Assembly: GCA_903839615.1 (NCBI GenBank)
Contig: CAIMCX010000021.1
Span: 1 to 36,725 of the forward strand
Length of the DNA: 36,725 nt
Direction: 5' to 3'
Source of the DNA: an uncultured bacterium
GTDB lineage: Bacteria > Bipolaricaulota > Bipolaricaulia > UBA7950 > UBA9294
The notes under the pieces were generated by a model that had not been told where the DNA came from, searched no databases, and was given only the letters and a program-made list of their open reading frames with translations. The translations under genes were made by a program, and so were the position numbers. Of this stretch, positions 19,203 through 35,796 are shown piece after piece. Numbering within the stretch: the stretch's first letter is position 1; every line of letters begins with the position of its first letter.

Positions 19203-19250
19203 TTGACGGCAGAGCTGCGCGCGCTAGAATATGAATGAACGTTCATTCAT
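19203..19250 (+). promoter_or_regulatory. Promoter TTGACG-N16-TAGAAT followed by perfect 20-bp palindromic operator ATGAATGAACGTTCATTCAT (19231-19250)
   Basis: The palindrome lies directly after the -10 element, over the expected +1, and just upstream of the TetR gene. Confidence 0.8.
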
Positions 19251-19263
19251 GCAGGAGGCGACG

Positions 19264-19872
19264 ATGGCGACCGACCCGGCGAAGCAGGATCTGATACGCA
19301 ACGCGGCGATTCGCGTATTCGCGCGCAAGGGATTCCACGCGACGCGGGCGGAGGAGATCGCCGAAGAGGCCGGGATCGCCGTCGGGACGATCTACAACTA
19401 CTTCGAGAGCAAGGCCCAGATCCTCCTCTCGATCTTCGAACGCGAGTTCGACGAAGAGGTCGGGCTCTACGAATCGCTGGCGAAGAGCGGCGTGTCGGTG
19501 CGCGAGCGTTTCAGCAAGATTCTGAGCGCCCACTTCGCGCGGCTCGCGGAGTCGCGCGACCTGGCAATGGTCCTCGTGCGCGAACGCTACAACGGGTCGG
19601 GCGAAATCGGCGAGGCCATGGCGAAGATGCAGCGCAAGATGCTCGACAAGATCGAGAAGCTGATCCAAGACGGCGTCGACGGTGGATGGCTGCGGACGTG
19701 CAACGTGCGCATGGTCGCGCCCGCCCTCTTCGCGGTCGTTCAGTCAATCAACGAGGCGGCGATGATCTACCCGGAGACTCAACAGAAAGCGTTCCTCGCC
19801 CGAGCGCCGGAGGAACTGGCGGCTCTGATATGGAGTGGACTCGCTCACGACGCGAAAGGAGCCCTGACATGA
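19264..19872 (+). CDS. TetR/AcrR-family transcriptional regulator
   Basis: AIRVFARKGFHATRAEEIAEEAGIAVGTIYNYFESKAQILLSIFE. ATG at 19264 follows GGAGGCG; the ORF-track start at 19231 lies inside the operator. Confidence 0.93.
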   Translation: MATDPAKQDLIRNAAIRVFARKGFHATRAEEIAEEAGIAVGTIYNYFESKAQILLSIFEREFDEEVGLYESLAKSGVSVRERFSKILSAHFARLAESRDLAMVLVRERYNGSGEIGEAMAKMQRKMLDKIEKLIQDGVDGGWLRTCNVRMVAPALFAVVQSINEAAMIYPETQQKAFLARAPEELAALIWSGLAHDAKGALT

Positions 19873-20030
19873 CGCGCGGTGACTCTGTGGTCGCGGCCGT
19901 CCTCGCGGTCCTCCTGTTCGTCCATCTGGCGAAGGCGATCGATAGGGCGCTGCCCGAGGCAGCACACGCGCCCACCACGGAAGGGGACTCTGCGATCGCG
20001 CGGAAGACCGCGGGCGGAAGGGAGCCATGA
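19869..20030 (+). CDS. 53-aa single-pass membrane microprotein in the TetR/MMPL operon
   Basis: MTRGDSVVAAVLAVLLFVHLAKAIDRALPEAAHAPTTEGDSAIARKTAGGREP; its ATG overlaps the tetR stop and its TGA overlaps the MMPL ATG (4-nt overlaps). Confidence 0.65.
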   Translation: MTRGDSVVAAVLAVLLFVHLAKAIDRALPEAAHAPTTEGDSAIARKTAGGREP

Positions 20031-22363
20031 TGCGCAAGTTCACCGGCTGGATCGTCGACCACGCCTGGCTGTCGCTCGCCGTCGTCGTCGCGCTCACCGT
20101 CTTCTTCCTCCTCTTCATCCCCAAACTCCAGTTACAGACTGACTTCGGCAAGTACCTGCCGGACAGCGACCGCTCGGTCCAACTGATGCACAAAGCGGAG
20201 AAGATCTTTGGATCGCAGGAGTTCTTCATGGTCGTGGTCGAGACGCCGAACACGATCTTCGACGTCAAGACCATCGCCGAGATCCACGCGATGGAGATCG
20301 AGTTCCAGGGTCTACATGAGATCGATCAGGTGATCGGGCCGACCACAGCGACCGTCATTTCTGCAACGAACGACAAACTGACGATCGAAAAGGCAGCGGA
20401 ACTCCTGCCGACGACGCCGGAGGAAGTCGAGAGCTATCGCCAGAAGGTACTCGGTGACCGCAATCTGAACGGCTACATCTTCGCGTCGAACGAGCGCGCG
20501 GCGGGCATCGTGCTCAAACCGAGCCCGTACCTCGACGACACGAACGCCCTCGTCGCGACCGTCAACCAGATCGCGCAAGCCCACAGTCACGAGGGGTTCA
20601 CGGTCTACGTCGGCGGCATCGCTCCGCTTCGCGCCGCGATCGGCGACAGCATGATGCACGACATGCTCGTCTTGACCCCACTCGTCTTGCTCGTAATGGA
20701 ACTCCTCGTCTTCCTCGCGTTCCGTACCGGGCGCGGCGTCGCGCTGCCGTTCCTCCTCATGACCTTCTCGACCATCTGGACGGTCGGGCTGATGGCGCTC
20801 GTCCACGTGCCACTCACGGCGTTCTCGTTCTTCATGCCCGTCATGCTCATTGCAGCAAGCAAGGCCTACGCGATTTTCACCGTGAACCGCTACTATGAGG
20901 AGGCCCAGCACGCCGATCGCCTGCCGCGGCGCGAGTTGGTCATTCAGACAATGCAGGACATGGCAAAGCCCCTGTCGATGGACGCGCTGGCCGAGGCAAC
21001 CGGGTTCCTGTCGCTCCTTGCCGCGAGCCTGTGGCCGCAGCAAACGTTCGGCTTGTTCATTGCGATCGGCATCGCGTTCACGCTCCTGCTCAACTTCATC
21101 CTCCTGCCCGCAATCCTCGCACTCCTACCTCTGCCGAAGAAGCACCGCGACTACGGACACGGCTGGCTCCCGAACGCGCTTGTCCGCTTCGGTCGGTTGA
21201 TCTCGCGGCGACGCGCCGTCGTCCTCATCCTGTCGGCCGTCGTGCTCGTCGCGTTCGCCGTGGCGATCCCGCGCCTCGTCGTCGATACGTCGCCGACCGA
21301 GTACCTGGGGAGCGAGCACGCGGCGATGGACGCCATGCACGCTCTCGACCGGAACTTCGGCGGCAGCTCCCAGGTTTCGATTCATATCGCGACTGGCCGC
21401 ACGAACGGCCTCAAGGATCCAACCGTCCTGAAGGCCGTCGTCGCGCTCGAGGACTTCATCCAGGCGCAGCCCGAGTACGGAGGCAGCATCACGTCGCTCG
21501 CCAACGTGATGCGCGAGATGAACCAGAAGTTCCACGCCGACGATCCAAGCTTCTACGTCATCCCCGACGATCCGAAGCTCGCGGCACAGCTTCTGACCTT
21601 GTTCACGTTCTCCGGCGGTGAGCTGTGGAACATGGCGACGCCCGATCTCTCGCAGGGTGAAGTGGTGGCGCGCACGAGCCTTCACGGCACGGCGCAGATC
21701 ATCGACCTCGCCGGACGCATCAGGGACTATGCGGCCGGCGTCCTGCCGGTCGGAGTCACCGCGGAGTTTGTCGGCGCCGAGCAAGCGTGGGCATCGCTCG
21801 CCCAGGAGACCGTGCCAAATACCGCGCTGACCCTTGCTATTGCGCTGGCGGCCGCGCTTCTCATCGTGACGATCCTCCTGCGCTCAATCGTCGCCGGCCT
21901 CGTCGCCGTGTCGCCGATGATCCTCACAATCGTGATCAACCTCGGGACGATGAGCTATCTCAAGATGCCGCTCGATCTTGCATCTCTGATGATCGGTTCG
22001 ATCACGGTCGGCGTCGGCATCGACTACACGATCAACTTCATCATCCGCTGGAGGACCGAGATGGCGCGCGGCCACACGATCGAGGAAGCCCACGAGATTA
22101 CGATGCGCACCATGGGGCGCGGCATCTTGTTCAACGCCCTGACGCTCACAGCGGGGTTCGCGATGTTCTACTTCTCGGCGTTCAAAGGCCTGCGCAACTT
22201 CGGACTCTTGATCAACCTCACGATGATTTGGTCGTTCTTCGGTTCGTTCATCGTCGTGCCGGCGCTCTTGCTCACCCTCAAGCCACGGTTCCTCACAGGC
22301 AAGAAGCGGTCGCAGGCCCCGGATAGCGACTCCACGTCTTCCACCCAGGAGGTTTCCCCATGA
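20027..22363 (+). CDS. RND-superfamily MMPL-type (HAE3-like) exporter
   Basis: Twelve-TM RND layout with two repeats, e.g. LDLASLMIGSITVGVGIDYTINFIIRW and GRGILFNALTLTAGFAMFYFS; large periplasmic loops. Confidence 0.92.
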   Translation: MMRKFTGWIVDHAWLSLAVVVALTVFFLLFIPKLQLQTDFGKYLPDSDRSVQLMHKAEKIFGSQEFFMVVVETPNTIFDVKTIAEIHAMEIEFQGLHEIDQVIGPTTATVISATNDKLTIEKAAELLPTTPEEVESYRQKVLGDRNLNGYIFASNERAAGIVLKPSPYLDDTNALVATVNQIAQAHSHEGFTVYVGGIAPLRAAIGDSMMHDMLVLTPLVLLVMELLVFLAFRTGRGVALPFLLMTFSTIWTVGLMALVHVPLTAFSFFMPVMLIAASKAYAIFTVNRYYEEAQHADRLPRRELVIQTMQDMAKPLSMDALAEATGFLSLLAASLWPQQTFGLFIAIGIAFTLLLNFILLPAILALLPLPKKHRDYGHGWLPNALVRFGRLISRRRAVVLILSAVVLVAFAVAIPRLVVDTSPTEYLGSEHAAMDAMHALDRNFGGSSQVSIHIATGRTNGLKDPTVLKAVVALEDFIQAQPEYGGSITSLANVMREMNQKFHADDPSFYVIPDDPKLAAQLLTLFTFSGGELWNMATPDLSQGEVVARTSLHGTAQIIDLAGRIRDYAAGVLPVGVTAEFVGAEQAWASLAQETVPNTALTLAIALAAALLIVTILLRSIVAGLVAVSPMILTIVINLGTMSYLKMPLDLASLMIGSITVGVGIDYTINFIIRWRTEMARGHTIEEAHEITMRTMGRGILFNALTLTAGFAMFYFSAFKGLRNFGLLINLTMIWSFFGSFIVVPALLLTLKPRFLTGKKRSQAPDSDSTSSTQEVSP

Positions 22364-23271
22364 TCGGCAAGCGCTTTCCTACGTTCCTCTTTGCCTCTGT
22401 CGCCGCCGTCGCGCTTTCTCTCGGAAGCGTGGGCGCGGCAGCGCAGTCGCTTGGCGCCTCCGACATCCTCGCCGCGATTGATGCGCGCGGCGGAATCACG
22501 GGTGTCGGAAGCCAGGTAGCATTCCTCTCGTTCGTCGTCCAGGACAAGAACGGCTCCGTGCAGGAAGCGTCCTTCGTCTCGTTCGCGAAGACCTCGTCGG
22601 ACCCGCAGGTCCCGGACGCCGGACTGATCTACTTCCTAGCTCCTCCGGCCGAGACGTGCGGCACAGTCTTCTTGACCATCGATCGCAAGATCTCGGGCCA
22701 GTCGACCGAGCTCTATCTCTACCTGCCCGCGCTCGGCATGCCGAAGGAGCTCGTCTCGAGCGGAGAGCGGAAGGGCTCGTTCGCCGGATCGAACATCCAG
22801 TTCGACCAGATCGGACGAAGCGAACTCGCCACGAACTTCGTCGGCGAACTCCTCGGGGAGACAACCCTGGACGTGACCGTTGAAGGCGTCGCCACGAGCC
22901 GTCCCGTCTACGTGCTCCATCTGACGGCAAACCCGAGCACGAATCCCAACGAAACCTTCCCCGACCGCACGGTCTGGGTGGACAAGGAGGGTTTCCTCGT
23001 CCTCGCCATGGAGAGCAAGAACACGCTGGGGAAACTTCAGAATGTCCTCCGCGTCAACGCTCTCGCGACATTCGAGAGCCGGCTCGAGTACACGGACATG
23101 ACCGTCTCGAACGTGCTCGACACGAGCTCGACGCGGGTTACGGTCTCCGATCGCGAGGATGTCGGGGAGTTCCCGGACTCGATGTTCGATCCTGCAGCGC
23201 TTGCCCAGTTCAATCCGCTGGCCTGGAATAACCTGCTCCAGGTGAAGGTGCCGGACCCCGTCTGCCCGTAG
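22360..23271 (+). CDS. LolA-like outer-membrane-lipoprotein-sorting family periplasmic protein (copy 1)
   Basis: Signal peptide MIGKRFPTFLFASVAAVALSLGSVGAAAQ; beta-rich body; C-terminal EFPDSMFDPAALAQF. ATGA overlap with the MMPL gene. Confidence 0.75.
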   Translation: MIGKRFPTFLFASVAAVALSLGSVGAAAQSLGASDILAAIDARGGITGVGSQVAFLSFVVQDKNGSVQEASFVSFAKTSSDPQVPDAGLIYFLAPPAETCGTVFLTIDRKISGQSTELYLYLPALGMPKELVSSGERKGSFAGSNIQFDQIGRSELATNFVGELLGETTLDVTVEGVATSRPVYVLHLTANPSTNPNETFPDRTVWVDKEGFLVLAMESKNTLGKLQNVLRVNALATFESRLEYTDMTVSNVLDTSSTRVTVSDREDVGEFPDSMFDPAALAQFNPLAWNNLLQVKVPDPVCP

Positions 23272-23409: not shown

Positions 23410-24666
23410 ATGGGCGAAGAGGCGAGTGTCGGGCAGCTAGCGCGCGAGTTGCTTGAAGAACATGAGGCCGCGTGGTGGGCCGGGCGCTCCGAATTGCCTG
23501 ACCTCGGTCGCACCTACACGCCGCGCGAGCAACAAGCAAGAGGGAAAGAACTTGGCCTGCTCGTCAACCAGCTCCTTGCGGAGATGCGGCATCCACCGGC
23601 CACCGCGAACGATCGGGAGGTTCTCGAGCAGAGAGTGACGCTGTCTGGACGGGCGTTCGCGCGCTCGTCGCTCGGCGTCGACGACGCCCACATGGATCTC
23701 CTGTTGCAGGGCGGGTTCACGCCGTGCGCGCGTGAGTTCGCCGAACGCGCCCGCCGCTTCGATCCTCGGATGCCGTTCGAGGACATTGTCCAGGCAAGCC
23801 GCAACGTGTGGACCATGAACGGACTCCAGATGATGCTCGGACTCCCGCTTCGCGTCACGCCGTCCGTCTTCGGGTACAGCATGCTCTACCCCTACACCGA
23901 CAACCTTCTCGACGATGCCGGTGTCACCGAAGACAAGAAGGTCCTGGCGAGCGAGCGCTTTGGCCGCCGCATCGCTGGAGAGGCGCTCGCCCCGGCCGAC
24001 GACCACGAGAAGAAGCTCTGGGCCCTATTCTCGGAGATCGAATCGGAGCACCGGCGCGACGAATCGCCGCGCGTCTACGAGAGTCTCGAAGGGATCCATC
24101 GCGCGCAGACGCGAAGCGTGTTGCTAATGAGGCCCGATGAGCCTCCCTACGCAGTGGACGTGCTCGGAATCAGCCTCGAGAAGGGCGGCGCGTCCGTCCT
24201 CGCCGATGGCGACCTCGTGGCCGGTAACCTGACGCGGTCACAGGCCGCGCACTTCTTTGGCCTCGGCGCCCTCCTCCAGCTCGCCGACGATCTCCAGGAT
24301 GTCAACAGCGACTCACGGTCGGGAACGCTCACGGTGTTCTCTCAGGCAGCCCAACGCTGGCCGCTTGACCGACTCGTGAGCCGCCTCCTCCACTTCCGCG
24401 CCTACGTGCTCGCGGAGTTCAGCCCGGGAGACGCGCCCGGCGCAGCACGACTCGGGGACTTGATGCGCGGCGCCAGCCTTCAGCTCATCCTCGGAGCCGT
24501 CGGGACTGCGCCCAAGCTCTTCACGCGGCAGTACGTTCGGGAACTGGAGGCCTTCTCGCCGTTCCGCTTCCGCGAGCTCGTACGGCAGCGCGGGAGACTG
24601 GAGCGACAGCGCGTCTCCTTCCTCGGCCTGGCCGCCTCGGCGCTCGAGAACGCCTCGTCGCGCTAG
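23410..24666 (+). CDS. Divergent class-1 isoprenoid-synthase-like protein
   Basis: Two Asp-rich motifs at plausible spacing: YPYTDNLLDD (Asp-rich part 23899-23916) and LLQLADDLQDVNSD (DDLQD at 24286-24300) in a helix-rich protein. Confidence 0.6.
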   Translation: MGEEASVGQLARELLEEHEAAWWAGRSELPDLGRTYTPREQQARGKELGLLVNQLLAEMRHPPATANDREVLEQRVTLSGRAFARSSLGVDDAHMDLLLQGGFTPCAREFAERARRFDPRMPFEDIVQASRNVWTMNGLQMMLGLPLRVTPSVFGYSMLYPYTDNLLDDAGVTEDKKVLASERFGRRIAGEALAPADDHEKKLWALFSEIESEHRRDESPRVYESLEGIHRAQTRSVLLMRPDEPPYAVDVLGISLEKGGASVLADGDLVAGNLTRSQAAHFFGLGALLQLADDLQDVNSDSRSGTLTVFSQAAQRWPLDRLVSRLLHFRAYVLAEFSPGDAPGAARLGDLMRGASLQLILGAVGTAPKLFTRQYVRELEAFSPFRFRELVRQRGRLERQRVSFLGLAASALENASSR

Positions 24667-29465: not shown

Positions 29466-30503
29466 GTGCGCATCGTCTACGGAGTCCAGAGCACCGGCAA
29501 GGGCCACCTGTCACGCCTCCTCGGTCTCCTGCCGCTCTTCCGTCGCGACGGACACGAGCTCCTCATCCTCGTCACGGGGCGGTGGGATCCTCCGCCCTAT
29601 TTCCTCGACGCGATCTCAGGGACGCCGTACCGCCGTTTCCCCGGACTTCCGATGGTTCCGGACGGAATGGGCGGCATCTCTAAACGCGGTACGGTGAGAG
29701 AGTTCGCGACGCGCTGGCCGGGCCTCTTTCGCAGCTTCCAGAAGGCCCATCGCCTGATCAGCGACTTCGATCCGGACCTCATCGTCAGCGACTTCGACCC
29801 CCTCACAGGATCGCCCTTCGTCGCTCCCGGAGTGTTCAAGGTCGGCATCGGCAACTACTTCACGCCGGCTCGGTCCGACGTCGAGCATCCCGACGGATTC
29901 CGGCGCGATCGCTTCAACGTCCGCGTCGTGGATAAGCTCGTGACCAGCGGGCTCGACGTCCGCTTCGGGTGCCACTTCTACCCTCTCGACGATCGGTGCC
30001 TCCCGCCGATCCTGCGCCCAGAGATCCTGACCATGCGGACAGAAGACCGCGGCCACCTCCTCGTCTACCATGCATTCCCGGGGCTCCTCGCCCCCGTCGC
30101 CGCGTACGCCGAGCGCCACCCGTCGACGTCGGTCATCGTCTACGGTCCCCGCTCTCGCCCGCGCGGCCTGCCCGACAACATGCATGTGGAGTTCGACTCC
30201 AATCGCTTCCTCAGCGATCTCGCCGGGTGCGATGCATTCATCGGGACTGCCGGGTTTCAATCGATTGCCGAAGGCTTCTACCTCGGGAAGAAGCTCGTCG
30301 TGCAGCCGATCGACGGCCACTACGAGCAGAAGTGGAACGCCTTCGAACTCGAGAAGCGAGGGATGGGGCGCTGGTGCCGAAACGGCCTCGAGGAAGCCCT
30401 CGATCAGACCTTCAACGCGGAGCTGCACGCCGAACTCGTCCCGTGGTACCGCACCGGCGCCGAGCGTCACTACGAGCAGATCCTGCTCAGCGGCGAGCGC
30501 TAG
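29466..30503 (+). CDS. Glycosyltransferase (UGT/MurG-like GT-B fold)
   Basis: RIVYGVQSTGKGHLSRLLGLLPLFRRDGHEL; GTAGFQSIAEGFYLGKKLVVQPIDGHYEQKWNA acceptor/UDP-binding-like block. GTG start with GGAGGAAGG RBS. Confidence 0.82.
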   Translation: MRIVYGVQSTGKGHLSRLLGLLPLFRRDGHELLILVTGRWDPPPYFLDAISGTPYRRFPGLPMVPDGMGGISKRGTVREFATRWPGLFRSFQKAHRLISDFDPDLIVSDFDPLTGSPFVAPGVFKVGIGNYFTPARSDVEHPDGFRRDRFNVRVVDKLVTSGLDVRFGCHFYPLDDRCLPPILRPEILTMRTEDRGHLLVYHAFPGLLAPVAAYAERHPSTSVIVYGPRSRPRGLPDNMHVEFDSNRFLSDLAGCDAFIGTAGFQSIAEGFYLGKKLVVQPIDGHYEQKWNAFELEKRGMGRWCRNGLEEALDQTFNAELHAELVPWYRTGAERHYEQILLSGER

Positions 30504-31702
30504 TCTGCCGAGTCGCCGTCGTACACGGTTCGACCCTCGATCAGGACCCGCTCGACGCGGCAGTGCGCAACGTCAAACGGATGGGCCGACAGAACCGCAA
30601 GATCGGCGTCCTTGCCTTGGGCGAGAGACCCCACACGGTCGTCGACCCCGAGGATTTCCGCCGGGGTGAGCGTGATCGCGCGCAGCGCGTCGCGCTCGTC
30701 CATGCCCTCGCTGACCGCGATTGCCGCGTTCAGCGCGAGGTAGCGAGTCGCGGACCCCTCGTCCGTCTGGATCGCCACCTTCACGCCTGCCCGGGAGAGG
30801 AGTCCGGCATTCCGCGGCGTGAGCCCACGCAGCTCGAGCTTCATCCGCGAGAAGAGGACCGGGCCGGCGACGCAAGGGATCCCCTTCTCGGCGATGAGGT
30901 CCGCGATCTTGTACCCCTCCGTCGCGTGGATGAGCACGAGATCGAGACCGAATTCCTCGGCGATTCGGATGGCCGTGACGATGTCGTCGGCGCGATGCGC
31001 GTGAATGTGGGTAGGGATTTCGCGTCGCAACGCGCTCGCAAGTACCTCGAGGCGGAGGTCCCGCTCAAATGGTTCCGGCCTCGCTTCGCCTCTCTTCCCG
31101 CGAGAGAATGCGGCCTCCTTCTCGGCGTGTCTCGCCGCCCGCTCGGCGTAGCCCTGGGCCTTGGTCAGGGCTTCTCGAAGGACGGCCGCGTTGCCCATCC
31201 GGGTGGAAGGCGCCCTCTTCTGATCGCCATAGACGCGCTTCGGGTTCTCGCCGAGCGCCATCTTGAGCGCCGCGGGGGCACGCATCAGCATCTCCTCAAC
31301 CGTGCGGCCGGCCGTCTTCACGATCGCCGTCTGCCCTCCGACGACGTTCGCACTCCCGGGACTGGTGTTAATCGTTGTGATCCCGGCGCGCCGCAGATCG
31401 GCGAACGCCAGGTCCTCGGGGTGAACCGCATCCAGCGCGCGGAGATGGGGCGTTACGGGATCCGTCATTTCATTCCCGTCGTAGAAGCGAGCATCGACTC
31501 CGTCTGCAAACAGCGCGACGTGGCAGTGCGCCTCCACAAGACCCGGGATGACGAATTTCCCCGAGGCGTCGAGCACTTCCGCCCGCTTGGACACCCGAGG
31601 AACTCTCCCAATCGCGGCGATTCTTCCCCGGTCGATGGTCACGTCCGTCTGTTCGAATCGGATGTCCGGCGTGAGTACCCTTCCGCCTTGGATGAGCAGC
31701 AC
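30500..31702 (-). CDS. Amidohydrolase (imidazolonepropionase-like metal-dependent hydrolase)
   Basis: GKFVIPGLVEAHCHVALF; THIHAHRADDI; VAIQTDEG; LTLTPAEILGVDDRVGSLAQGKDADLAVL-type C-terminus. GTG at 31702 follows AAGGAGG. Confidence 0.88.
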   Translation of the reverse strand: MLLIQGGRVLTPDIRFEQTDVTIDRGRIAAIGRVPRVSKRAEVLDASGKFVIPGLVEAHCHVALFADGVDARFYDGNEMTDPVTPHLRALDAVHPEDLAFADLRRAGITTINTSPGSANVVGGQTAIVKTAGRTVEEMLMRAPAALKMALGENPKRVYGDQKRAPSTRMGNAAVLREALTKAQGYAERAARHAEKEAAFSRGKRGEARPEPFERDLRLEVLASALRREIPTHIHAHRADDIVTAIRIAEEFGLDLVLIHATEGYKIADLIAEKGIPCVAGPVLFSRMKLELRGLTPRNAGLLSRAGVKVAIQTDEGSATRYLALNAAIAVSEGMDERDALRAITLTPAEILGVDDRVGSLAQGKDADLAVLSAHPFDVAHCRVERVLIEGRTVYDGDSAD

Positions 31703-31790
31703 CTTGCCTCCTTCGCCGCGCTGGCCGTATCCGTGGAGTGAGGGAAGTGTACGCAACGAGATCAGGAAGTGCACATCCCCCATTGGCGCC

Positions 31791-31819
31791 TTGCCAGATG
31801 CAGAATCGGACGATAGAGT
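31791..31819 (+). promoter_or_regulatory. Candidate promoter for the ABC/LolA-like operon (TTGCCA-N17-TAGAGT)
   Basis: -35/-10 pair about 30 nt upstream of the ATPase ATG (31849). Confidence 0.45.
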
Positions 31820-31848
31820 GGTCCAGGGAGAACCAAGGGAAGGGATCG

Positions 31849-32589
31849 ATGGGAAGCGATAGCCGGTTTTGTCACGTGCGCGGGAGGCCGTTCCTCGAGG
31901 CGAGGGACGTGACAAAGACCTATCAGGTCGGGGCGGAAACAGTCTACGCGCTCCGCGACGTGCAATTCGCCGCCCTGCAGGGGGATTTCGTCGTGATCAA
32001 CGGTCCCTCCGGCAGCGGGAAGACGACGTTCCTCAACCTCATGTCCGTGATCGACCGCCCGACGTCGGGCGATGTGTTCATCGAAGGGCAGTCGACCAGC
32101 GCGAAGTCCGAAGGCCAGCTTGCGCTCTTGCGGAAGACGAAGATCGGGCTCGTGTTCCAGTCGTTCAACCTCATCCCCGTCTTGAGTGCAGCGGAGAACG
32201 TCGAGTACCCGCTCCTTCTTCAAAAGAGGCCGCCGGCCGAGCGCCGGACGCGCGTTGCGGCGATGCTCTCCGAAGTGGGTCTCGACGCGCTTGCGCGCCG
32301 CCGGCCGAACGAGCTATCCGGCGGCCAGCGCCAGCGGGTGGCCATCGCGCGCGCCCTCATCACTGGACCGATGATCGTCCTTGCCGATGAGCCGACGGCG
32401 AACCTCGACTCCAAGACCGGCGAAGCGGTCATGGATCTGATGCGCCGATTGAACGAGGAACATTGCGTCACGTTCATCGTTGTGACGCACGATCCCGCGG
32501 TGTCTCGCTACGCCCAGCGTCGCGTTCGCATTCACGATGGACAGCTGATCGAGGAGGATGTAGGTGGGCTGGCGTCTCCCGCTTCGTAG
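31849..32589 (+). CDS. ABC transporter ATP-binding protein (LolD/MacB-type)
   Basis: GPSGSGKTTFLNLMSVIDRPTSG Walker A; LSGGQRQRVAIARAL signature; IVLADEPTANLDSKTG Walker B. ATG at 31849 with AAGGGAAGGG. Confidence 0.95.
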   Translation: MGSDSRFCHVRGRPFLEARDVTKTYQVGAETVYALRDVQFAALQGDFVVINGPSGSGKTTFLNLMSVIDRPTSGDVFIEGQSTSAKSEGQLALLRKTKIGLVFQSFNLIPVLSAAENVEYPLLLQKRPPAERRTRVAAMLSEVGLDALARRRPNELSGGQRQRVAIARALITGPMIVLADEPTANLDSKTGEAVMDLMRRLNEEHCVTFIVVTHDPAVSRYAQRRVRIHDGQLIEEDVGGLASPAS

Positions 32590-33775
32590 CCTGTGGCGGA
32601 ATCGTCGCCGCACGATCTTGTCGCTCCTCGTCATCGCTCTCGGCACGGCCGTTTCGGCCTTCGTCTTCGGGTTCCTCGAGAACTCGCGTCTGCAGATCCA
32701 GCAATCGACCGTGCAGGAGTACGGCAACCTGCAGATCGCGTCGCCGGAATTGTGGAACAGCAAGACCGACGGATATGGCTACCTGATCGCGCCCGCCGCG
32801 GCTGCACAGGTAGGCGGACTCCTGGCGCAAGAACCAGGCTTTCGCGGGTCGACGTCCCAACTTCAGTTTCCCGGTCTGCTCGGCACCGGACGCGACACGC
32901 AGGTCATCCGAGCCCTCGGCATCGAGCCCGGAAACCCTGTTCTTGACTTCGCCGACCACGTCGTGGCGGGCCGAGGTCTCGCGCCAACCGACACCGCCGC
33001 GGTGTTCGTCGGCCGCACTCTGGCCGACAAGCTGTCTCTCTCCGTCGGCAGCATTGTCATGGCCACGCTGACCACCGTCCACGGCGCGTACAACGCAAGC
33101 CCGTTCACGGTCGTCGGGATCTACAAATACACGAACGCGCAGTTCGAAGAGCAGGTTGTCTTCATTCCACTCGCTTTCGCGCAGCGCCTGCTCGACACCG
33201 ACGGCGTCGATCGTATCGTCGTCTCGCTCGACCAGATTGCCGAGACCTCGACGGTGGCAGTGCACCTCACGACTGGGCTTGCAGCAAGCGGCATCGCCCT
33301 GGCTCCACGGACGTGGGACGACCTCTCTCCTTTCTATCGCCAGCTTGCGTCCTACTTCAACGCGCTCTTCGCCTTCTTGTCCTTTGCCATCTCGATTCTC
33401 GTCTTCTTCATCATTCTGGAGGTCCAGACCCTGGCTTTCCTGGAGCGCACGCGCGAGGTGGGCACGATTCGCGCTCTCGGCACGACGCAGCGTGAGGTCT
33501 TCGTGCTCTTCTTCGCCGAGAGCGCGTGGCTCGCCGCCCTCGGCAGCGCGTCCGGCGTCGCCGTCGGAGCCCTTCTGATCGCTGCCTTCAATGCAGCGAA
33601 GATCCAGTGGCTGCCACCCGGCACCATTGACTACTTCACGCTGGGAGCGAAGATCGAAGTCGGGACCGTCCTCGTGCCGTTTGCGATCAGTTTCGTAGCC
33701 ACGCTCTTGTCCGCCTTGTATCCGGCCGCGCAGGCGTCGCGCTTGCGCGTCGTCGACGCGCTGCGAGTGGAGTAG
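32564..33775 (+). CDS. ABC transporter permease (FtsX/LolC/MacB-type), copy 1
   Basis: LPLRSLWRNRRRTILSLLVIALGTAVSAFVFGF; FLERTREVGTIRALGTTQREVF; 403 aa; GTG start, overlaps the ATPase gene. Confidence 0.92.
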   Translation: MGWRLPLRSLWRNRRRTILSLLVIALGTAVSAFVFGFLENSRLQIQQSTVQEYGNLQIASPELWNSKTDGYGYLIAPAAAAQVGGLLAQEPGFRGSTSQLQFPGLLGTGRDTQVIRALGIEPGNPVLDFADHVVAGRGLAPTDTAAVFVGRTLADKLSLSVGSIVMATLTTVHGAYNASPFTVVGIYKYTNAQFEEQVVFIPLAFAQRLLDTDGVDRIVVSLDQIAETSTVAVHLTTGLAASGIALAPRTWDDLSPFYRQLASYFNALFAFLSFAISILVFFIILEVQTLAFLERTREVGTIRALGTTQREVFVLFFAESAWLAALGSASGVAVGALLIAAFNAAKIQWLPPGTIDYFTLGAKIEVGTVLVPFAISFVATLLSALYPAAQASRLRVVDALRVE

Positions 33776-33783
33776 GAGGAAGG

Positions 33784-34995
33784 GTGGAACTGAAGATCGC
33801 ATTGCGCAACGTCTTCCGCAACCGGCGCCGAACCGCCTTCAGCCTCACGGTCATCGCCGTGGGAACGGCCGTGTTCCTGTTTGTGCTCGCCTACGTCGGA
33901 GAAGCCCTTCTCTCCGAACGCCTCTCGTCGGCCTGCGAGACCGGCGCGGTCCAAGTGGCGGACGAGCGGCTGTTCGCGAGTCAGGCGAACGGCTACGACC
34001 ACCTCATCTCTCCCGAGCTCCAAGCACGCGTCGTCGATCTCGTGACGAAGAGGCCCGGCGTTCTCGGGACGTCGCTTGAACTTGATTTCGCAGGCCTCAT
34101 CGGGGATGCCAACGGGAGCACGCTGGTTGTCGGCCGTGGTCTCACGCCGTGCGATTGCGTTCCGAACACCACCTGCTACGCGATCGAGGGCAAACCGATC
34201 TCGGGCGGCGACGCGCGTGAGGCTGTCCTGGGCAGAAGGCTCGCGGCAAAGCTCGGCGTGGATACCGGCGCATCGATCAACATCGCCACGGGGACCGTGA
34301 CGGGCAACTTCAGCGCCGCCACCGTGACGGTCGTGGGGCAGGTGTCGTACAGCCTTGGAACGGTCGAGGAACAGCTCGGCCTCTTCCCCACGGGGTTCGT
34401 GCAGCATCTGCTCAAGACAGACGGCGTCGAGCGCATCCTGATCGGACTCGACGACTTGAACAAAGCCCCGCAGTTCGCCGACGAGCTTCGCAGGGCACTC
34501 GCTGCAGAAGGGATCCCGCTCGGAGTCCGCACCTGGCAGGATTTGTCCACCGGCTACGCTTCGTCTCAGTCGTTCTACGCCGCGTTCTCAGGCTTGGCGG
34601 GGATCTCGGTGTTCGCGCTCGTCTTCTTCAGCGTCGTCGAGATCCTCACGATCTCCTTCCTCGAGCGCACGCGCGAGGTGGCAACGACGCGCGCCTTCGG
34701 CGCGACCCGTTGGCGCGTGTTCCGCGGCTTCCTCCTCGAGGGCGCGGCGATCGGCGCCATCGGCGCCGTGATCGGTGTCGTTCTCGCATCGGTGCTGACG
34801 CTCGCATTCAACGCCGCGAGGATCACCTGGATGCCGCCCGGCTCGGCCGTTCCGCAGGCGATTCACCTCTCTCTCAGCCTCTCCACGGCGCTCGTGCCCC
34901 TCGTGACGGTCATCCTCGCTACCGTAGCGAGCTCGGTGTACCCTGCATGGAAGAACGCACGATCAAGCGTGGTGAAGGCGCTTCAGGCCGTGTAG
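33784..34995 (+). CDS. ABC transporter permease (FtsX/LolC/MacB-type), copy 2
   Basis: IALRNVFRNRRRTAFSLTVIAVGTAVFLFVLAY; FLERTREVATTRAFGATRWRVF; also 403 aa. Confidence 0.92.
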   Translation: MELKIALRNVFRNRRRTAFSLTVIAVGTAVFLFVLAYVGEALLSERLSSACETGAVQVADERLFASQANGYDHLISPELQARVVDLVTKRPGVLGTSLELDFAGLIGDANGSTLVVGRGLTPCDCVPNTTCYAIEGKPISGGDAREAVLGRRLAAKLGVDTGASINIATGTVTGNFSAATVTVVGQVSYSLGTVEEQLGLFPTGFVQHLLKTDGVERILIGLDDLNKAPQFADELRRALAAEGIPLGVRTWQDLSTGYASSQSFYAAFSGLAGISVFALVFFSVVEILTISFLERTREVATTRAFGATRWRVFRGFLLEGAAIGAIGAVIGVVLASVLTLAFNAARITWMPPGSAVPQAIHLSLSLSTALVPLVTVILATVASSVYPAWKNARSSVVKALQAV

Positions 34996-35043
34996 CCCCG
35001 GCAAGCGGTCTGACGCGCCGGGATCAAGGCAAAGGAGACTCGG

Positions 35044-35796
35044 ATGAAGCTCGCTCTAGCGCTCGCTCTCACCTTGCTCGTCGCCGCGCCGGCAATCGCT
35101 CAGACTGCTCTGTCGGATTCGGACCTCTTGAGCGCCCTCGACGAGGCGCGCTTCCCCGCCGCGGACGTCAACGTCCTGCGCATCCACATCACGTCGATCA
35201 CGCCGGGTGCGACGCGCGAGGCCGAGATCCTTCTTCGGTTCAAGCAGATCAGCGGGAAGGACTACGCGCGGATCGAGTTCCTCTCGCCCGCCGACATGGC
35301 CGGCCAGATCTACCTCTCCACACCGGATGCGACGTACTTCTTCAGTCCGGACCTCACCTCGCCGATCAAGACGTCGGCAACGGCGGAGATCTTCGGCGAC
35401 TCGGCGGTCGCACAGACAAGCGGCATTCGCTTCCTCTCCAAGTACACGATCACCGCGCGACGGACCGTCCAGGGAGCCGACGGAAGCAAGCTCCTGGAGC
35501 TCGACCTCGCGGCCGTCGACTACACGGTGGCGTTCCAGGTCATCACCGTGCACGTCGATCCGGTGACGGTTCGCCCCGTGTCCGCCACGTTGTACGCCGT
35601 GAGCGGCCTTCCCTTCTACGACGTGACGTACAAGAACTACGTGACCCGCGACAACGGAGACGCCTACGTCGCAGTGCAGGAGATCACGAACCGTCTCTTC
35701 GCCGGCCGTACGACGACTTCGGAGATCCTCGACGCATCCGCAGCGGACCTTCCCGATGCGCTGTTCGATCCTGCACTGCTGGGGACATCGGGCTGA
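35044..35796 (+). CDS. LolA-like outer-membrane-lipoprotein-sorting family periplasmic protein (copy 2)
   Basis: Signal peptide MKLALALALTLLVAAPAIAQ; REAEILLRFKQISGKDYARIEFLSPADMAGQIYLSTPDATYFFSPDL; C-terminal DLPDALFDPALLG, similar to copy 1. Confidence 0.8.
   Translation: MKLALALALTLLVAAPAIAQTALSDSDLLSALDEARFPAADVNVLRIHITSITPGATREAEILLRFKQISGKDYARIEFLSPADMAGQIYLSTPDATYFFSPDLTSPIKTSATAEIFGDSAVAQTSGIRFLSKYTITARRTVQGADGSKLLELDLAAVDYTVAFQVITVHVDPVTVRPVSATLYAVSGLPFYDVTYKNYVTRDNGDAYVAVQEITNRLFAGRTTTSEILDASAADLPDALFDPALLGTSG

Follow-up and report, generated by a model that had tools for sequence, protein, structure and literature searches.

A candidate lipid-export cassette with two type VII permeases and an operon-linked LolA_like carrier recurs across the Bipolaricaulota

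A four-gene operon encoding an ATP-binding cassette (ABC) ATPase, two permeases (P1 and P2) and a secreted LolA-fold carrier was analysed at positions 31791-35796 of the window, the whole 36,725-nucleotide (nt) stretch of DNA considered here. This stretch makes up contig C21 of a metagenome-assembled genome of 1.34 Mb at 76% completeness. The original prediction had described a promoter-like element followed by the ATPase, two permeases of 403 amino acids (aa) and a signal-peptide-bearing carrier, all on one strand with short gaps in an apparently non-proteobacterial host, and our analysis returned this layout at exactly the same coordinates (Table 1) and assigned the genome to the Bipolaricaulota. 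The catalytic motifs in the ATPase sequence were intact (Walker A GPSGSGKTT, signature LSGGQ, Walker B VLADEP and the H-loop), the MacB_PCD match of P2 fell below the Pfam cut-off and the carrier began with a type I signal peptide ending AIA, followed by Q. The ATPase/P1, P1/P2 and P2/carrier junctions measured -26, +8 and +48 nt, with ribosome-binding sites ahead of P1 (GAGGAGG at 32551), P2 (AGGAGG at 33774) and the carrier (AAGGAG at 35032). As these junctions are short or overlapping and each has a good ribosome-binding site, the four genes are likely to be co-translated. Two promoter-like sites were observed in the region against 0.2 expected from shuffling, and the promoter match by itself was given no weight as operon evidence.

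Table 1. Features of the window at the ABC operon and at a second carrier-exporter cassette
Feature	Position	Strand	Basis or remark
Promoter-like site TTGCCA-17-TAGAGT	31791-31819	+	9/12 consensus match; weak evidence alone
LolD/MacB-type ABC ATPase, 246 aa	31849-32589	+	Pfam ABC_tran; LolD model
Permease P1, type VII (FtsX/LolC/E-fold), 403 aa, GTG start	32564-33775	+	Pfam FtsX and MacB_PCD
Permease P2, type VII (FtsX/LolC/E-fold), 403 aa, GTG start, P1 paralogue	33784-34995	+	Pfam FtsX and MacB_PCD
Secreted LolA-fold carrier, LolA_like PF17131, 250 aa	35044-35796	+	Pfam; signal peptide
Divergent amidohydrolase	30500-31783	-	Shares a 65-nt intergenic region with the operon
MMPL/RND exporter	20027-22363	+	Second carrier-exporter cassette
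Second LolA_like carrier	22360-23271	+	Overlaps the MMPL gene by 4 nt at its start

The order ATPase-P1-P2-carrier was found in at least 30 clusters from at least 26 of 100 Bipolaricaulota genomes belonging to several families, and some form of permease-carrier cluster was present in at least 46 of the 100. Because the same order recurs across the phylum with nearly constant junctions, the four-gene arrangement is not due to chance, and the expected conservation of the carrier next to the permeases was borne out. The same parts also occurred as permease-carrier-permease-ATPase, permease-carrier-ATPase, carrier-ATPase-permease-permease and ATPase-permease-carrier, giving five orders in total. 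Linkage that survives such reshuffling argues for joint function of the cassette genes rather than mere shared descent.

Our survey of 103 LolA_like open reading frames, picked from strong matches and not as a random sample, with neighbours assigned by family profiles, showed that 57 adjoined a type VII permease and 38 an MMPL exporter, while none adjoined both and 8 neither. Three of these eight were truncated by a contig end, one lay beside a permease fragment and one beside an ATPase; the remainder came mostly from a single genome, G058 (4.1 Mb; loci L100, L101 and L102), which has an expanded LolA_like set including four genes with no exporter found nearby. The genome of the window itself had exactly three LolA_like genes over threshold, partnered respectively with type VII ABC, MMPL and ABC-2 exporters. 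The last of these was found on contig C93 (L197 5786-9028), where TetR, LolA_like, ABC ATPase and ABC-2 permease genes follow one another, so that ABC-2 exporters join the type VII ABC and MMPL classes as partners of LolA-fold carriers. The use of one carrier family by unrelated exporter classes suggests that LolA_like carriers bind hydrophobic cargo in general. The linkage of exporter and carrier proposed from the window is real but not special to this genome, being the rule for LolA_like genes of the phylum and extending to Proteobacteria and Borrelia.

All four components resemble Lol proteins, but none passes a curated Lol cut-off. The ATPase scored 224.8 bits against the LolD model TIGR02211, missing the cut-off of 307.75 although this was still its best NCBIfam match, and P1 and P2 scored 90.7 and 75.5 bits against the LolC/LolE model TIGR02212 (cut-off 362.45). 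Among more distant comparisons, the permeases were consistently nearer to LolC/E/F than to MacB, both in profile searches (best E-values of ~1e-20 to 1e-23 for LolF/LolE/LolC and 1e-12 to 1e-14 for MacB) and in hhalign comparisons (1e-17 and 2e-21 for LolC/E; 1e-10 to 1e-11 for MacB). AlphaFold models of the two permeases (mean predicted local distance difference test scores 85.6 and 84.1) likewise matched LolE/LolC best among PDB structures, with template modelling scores of 0.70-0.75 in comparison to 0.46-0.63 for MacB. The Hook of LolC was sought by alignment, and six residues of the LolC hairpin were absent from 10 of 10 cassette permeases, with a five-residue turn at this position in the models; LolC-like docking of the carrier is therefore not expected.

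The carrier matched Pfam LolA_like PF17131 at 57 bits (gathering cut-off 30) and its solved relative NE2245 (3buu), a LolA-superfamily protein, at a profile E-value of 7e-30. It gave no match to Pfam LolA PF03548, and hhalign detected no profile similarity to E. coli LolA (probability 1.7%). Canonical LolA itself was nearly absent from the 100 phylum genomes, with four weak matches above cut-off and none in the genome of the window, and a scan of the genome collection with the carrier as query returned only three close relatives. The profile comparison thus upheld the kinship of the permeases with LolC/E over MacB, but the scores against LolD, LolC/E and LolA profiles, the missing Hook and the lack of detectable kinship to E. 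coli LolA do not support true Lol membership. The operon has in common with E. coli LolCDE and LolA the permease fold, the combination of two permeases with an ATPase and a LolA-fold carrier. It differs in the xxPPG motif of its permeases, which LolC/E lack, in the Hook, which LolC has, and in holding the carrier gene within the operon.

Maximum-likelihood phylogenetic analysis of the permeases, calculated without LolF sequences and with the unstable YbbP halves left out, gathered the permeases of the window, Proteobacteria and Borrelia into a single clade (support 100/99) that is separate from both LolC/LolE and MacB. Within this clade P1 and P2 were sister groups, indicating that their split occurred independently of LolC/LolE, and the single-permease operons of family f6 branched beside them. 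Permeases of types B, C and D joined the clade only at 70/83, which does not show them to be members. The two other full permeases of the window's genome (contigs C98 and C81) grouped with MacB, whereas P1 and P2 did not.

Searches of plasmids with P1 and P2 identified ATPase-permease-LolA_like cassettes in E. coli G8 (NZ_CP060058), Enterobacter (NZ_CP110986), Klebsiella (LR134125), Rahnella (NZ_CP019063), Plesiomonas and Vibrio, and versions were also found in Burkholderia and Bdellovibrio; the literature searched, in which coverage was partial, yielded no published description of the proteobacterial cassettes. The E. coli G8 permease aligned end-to-end with the P1 profile (hhalign E-value 2e-44), and the G8 carrier was likewise recovered as a homologue with the profile built for the carrier (4e-17). 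These cassettes share with the operon the order ATPase-permease-carrier and the carrier family PF17131, the carrier being labelled 'outer membrane lipoprotein-sorting protein', but they have one permease in place of two, and several lie inside fatty-acid-synthase-like clusters. Enterobacterales cassettes were found amid genes for acyl carrier protein, ketosynthase, dehydratase, ketoreductase and malonyltransferase, and the Burkholderia cassette adjoined an AMP-binding acyl-activating enzyme; those of Plesiomonas and Vibrio were accompanied by a histidine kinase and a LytTR regulator and had no lipid genes. In most of these proteobacterial cassettes the carrier was followed by a secreted protein of ~400-460 aa with no Pfam family, whose amphipathic barrel pattern (z 0.6-2.6; FadL control 2.3) is suggestive only. 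Since this predicted outer-membrane barrel protein follows the carrier, such cassettes could plausibly provide a complete route from the inner to the outer membrane. The E. coli G8 plasmid cluster (L192 6879-18075), present in 2 of 5,426 E. coli genomes, combined a full exporter-carrier-barrel-like set with fatty-acid-synthase-like genes and a protein bearing a FeeM (N-acyl amino acid synthase) domain.

In Borrelia, BBJ26-BBJ27-BBJ28, part of the BBJ23-29 cluster, showed the same three parts in the same order but with a single permease, and its neighbours encode TPR proteins and an Omp85 protein that lacks POTRA domains (PMC13078400). The permease BBJ27 aligned end-to-end with P1 and P2 (hhalign E-values 3e-27 and 8e-30), while the carrier BBJ28 had marginal sequence similarity to the operon carrier and no Pfam match. 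The cluster has been described as Borrelia-only (PMC13078400); judged from these alignments, at the level of ATPase, permease and carrier it appears to have relatives in Proteobacteria and Bipolaricaulota. Helical-repeat partners were recurrent among these systems. In families f6 and f9 the operon has a fifth gene, which encodes a secreted HEAT-repeat protein (L079 4566-6176; L182 7911-9584), one f6 operon included a TPR protein, and weak TPR matches were found upstream of the E. coli and Enterobacter cassettes, in addition to the TPR proteins of Borrelia.

The interpretation we favour, with moderate confidence, is that the operon is a dedicated export cassette for a lipid or lipid-like molecule that operates by a LolCDE-LolA-type hand-off and is distinct from the housekeeping Lol pathway. 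Two ATPase subunits would power a P1-P2 heterodimer of type VII permeases which, by analogy to LolCDE, may draw a hydrophobic molecule from the outer leaflet of the inner membrane. The cargo would then be pushed up through the periplasmic domains of the permeases and received in the cavity of the LolA_like protein, a dedicated soluble carrier that would convey it toward the outer membrane. A lipid or lipid-like cargo is most likely, rather than the general lipoprotein pool, because the informative neighbourhoods of relatives hold lipid-synthesis genes. The aryl-polyene lipid cluster of E. coli offers a precedent, with LolA-like and LolB-like proteins and an RND exporter that serve its specialised lipid alone (PMC8253772). 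The envelope lipid or lipoprotein route of the original prediction was the right kind of inference and is partly supported, with the balance of context on the side of lipids. Several observations weigh against this interpretation. In Bipolaricaulota the neighbours of the operon included no recognisable gene for lipid synthesis, so that the argument on cargo rests on one-permease relatives from other phyla. No outer-membrane acceptor was found beside the operon in the phylum, where the nearest candidate partner is the HEAT-repeat protein of f6 and f9, and the barrel gene that adjoins the carrier in Proteobacteria was absent at the operon. The Hook, which in LolC recruits LolA, is also missing from the cassette permeases.

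Alternatively, the operon may be a general Lol-type route for triacylated lipoproteins, which we regard as unlikely although it is the foremost competitor. LspA was found in 93 and Omp85 in 88 of the 100 Bipolaricaulota genomes, indicating lipoprotein synthesis and an outer membrane in most of the phylum, and the near-absence of canonical LolA leaves a vacancy that such a route would fill. The nearest permeases among solved structures were moreover LolF/LolE/LolC, and E. coli LolC/LolE show a comparable two-permease split. However, in contrast to E. coli LolCDE and LolA, the cassette is not universal in lipoprotein-making relatives: the nearly complete genome G004 (one contig, 96% complete) possesses LspA and Omp85 without a type VII-carrier cassette, its only LolA_like gene being MMPL-linked, so that the cassette cannot be the route by which lipoproteins are generally handled in the phylum. 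This outcome is joined by the separate origin of the P1/P2 duplication, by the lack of a LolC-type Hook and by published surveys in which diderm Terrabacteria, except Halanaerobiia, showed neither Lol nor lipoproteins of the outer membrane (PMC11784454, PMC10665443). The Enterobacterales relatives, furthermore, lie inside lipid-synthesis clusters in Lol-bearing hosts. E. coli K-12 has LolCDE and LolA, and the other Enterobacterales hosts of the cassette presumably also carry both on the chromosome.

An improbable third interpretation is that of a MacB-like efflux system or bacteriocin/peptide exporter in which the LolA_like protein, as an accessory binding protein, replaces the MacA adaptor. 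The MacB_PCD domain named by Pfam in P1 and P2, the inclusion of MacB and other exporters among type VII ABC transporters and the PadR or TetR-family regulators that adjoin some relatives could all be explained in this way. MacB nevertheless ranked well below LolC/E/F by profile and fold, P1 and P2 fell outside the MacB branch that held the two other full permeases of the genome, no membrane-fusion (MacA-type) gene was found among the adjacent genes scanned and MacAB-TolC is not known to involve a carrier of the LolA fold. It is very improbable that the operon encodes a type VII complex for signalling or linked to a hydrolase, in the style of FtsEX-EnvC or YbbAP-TesA, that exports nothing on balance to the outer membrane: non-transporters do exist among type VII ABC proteins, and YbbAP-TesA has been described as a lipid hydrolase complex extracting hydrophobic compounds from the inner membrane (PMC12646458), but the partner here is a LolA-fold cavity protein and neither an amidase activator nor a hydrolase, its family also pairs with MMPL and ABC-2 exporters and the proteobacterial relatives add a predicted outer-membrane barrel.

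Of the genes flanking the operon, the amidohydrolase adjoined it only in the window's own family (f1) and is not part of the system, and the gene 104 nt downstream of the carrier encodes a 125-aa membrane protein with no Pfam family. The ATPases of f1 and f3 were extended at the N-terminus by a common segment (window 31849-31910) in which an FC(H/Y) motif is conserved, and which was not present in f6. The second carrier-exporter cassette, 8.6 kb from the ABC operon (19231-23271), begins with a gene for a TetR regulator and continues with those for the MMPL exporter and its LolA_like carrier, and a search of plasmids with this carrier gave one weak match. It parallels the aryl-polyene lipid cluster of E. 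coli, in which the RND exporter ApeM, LolA-like ApeL and LolB-like ApeN form a dedicated system that moves a specialised lipid to the outer membrane (PMC8253772), and it differs from the ABC operon in the exporter class. Directly after the MMPL cassette (23410-24666) lies a gene for a 418-aa protein without Pfam or PDB sequence match, whose DNLLDD and LADDLQDVNSD stretches resemble, as judged by eye, a class I terpenoid synthase; this likeness, if real, would hint at an isoprenoid cargo for the MMPL cassette.

In summary, the operon belongs to a cross-phylum family of carrier-plus-exporter systems with a lipid-leaning context, and what is new here is that two permeases are combined with a carrier encoded in their own operon, in a phylum group for which Lol has been described as lacking. 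A 2024 review reported no Lol pathway in diderm Terrabacteria apart from Halanaerobiia (PMC11784454), and a 2023 survey reported that Lol is absent in Terrabacteria and that the Bipolaricaulota outer membrane is detached at the poles (PMC10665443). In this survey the presence of Lol was judged from LolA (PMC10665443), a criterion by which the LolA_like cassette family would escape detection. As a tentative suggestion, to which we attach rather low confidence, LolA-fold carriers may be old modular periplasmic lipid shuttles that work with exporters of three unrelated kinds (type VII ABC, MMPL and ABC-2), the ABC version being a lipid exporter from or beside which the lipoprotein-specific LolDF/LolCDE-LolA systems arose and which may still serve outer-membrane building in Terrabacteria thought to lack such a route. 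The operon family provides concrete exporter-plus-carrier candidates that LolA-based surveys would overlook, and its relatives on E. coli plasmids offer a genetically tractable system for finding the cargo.

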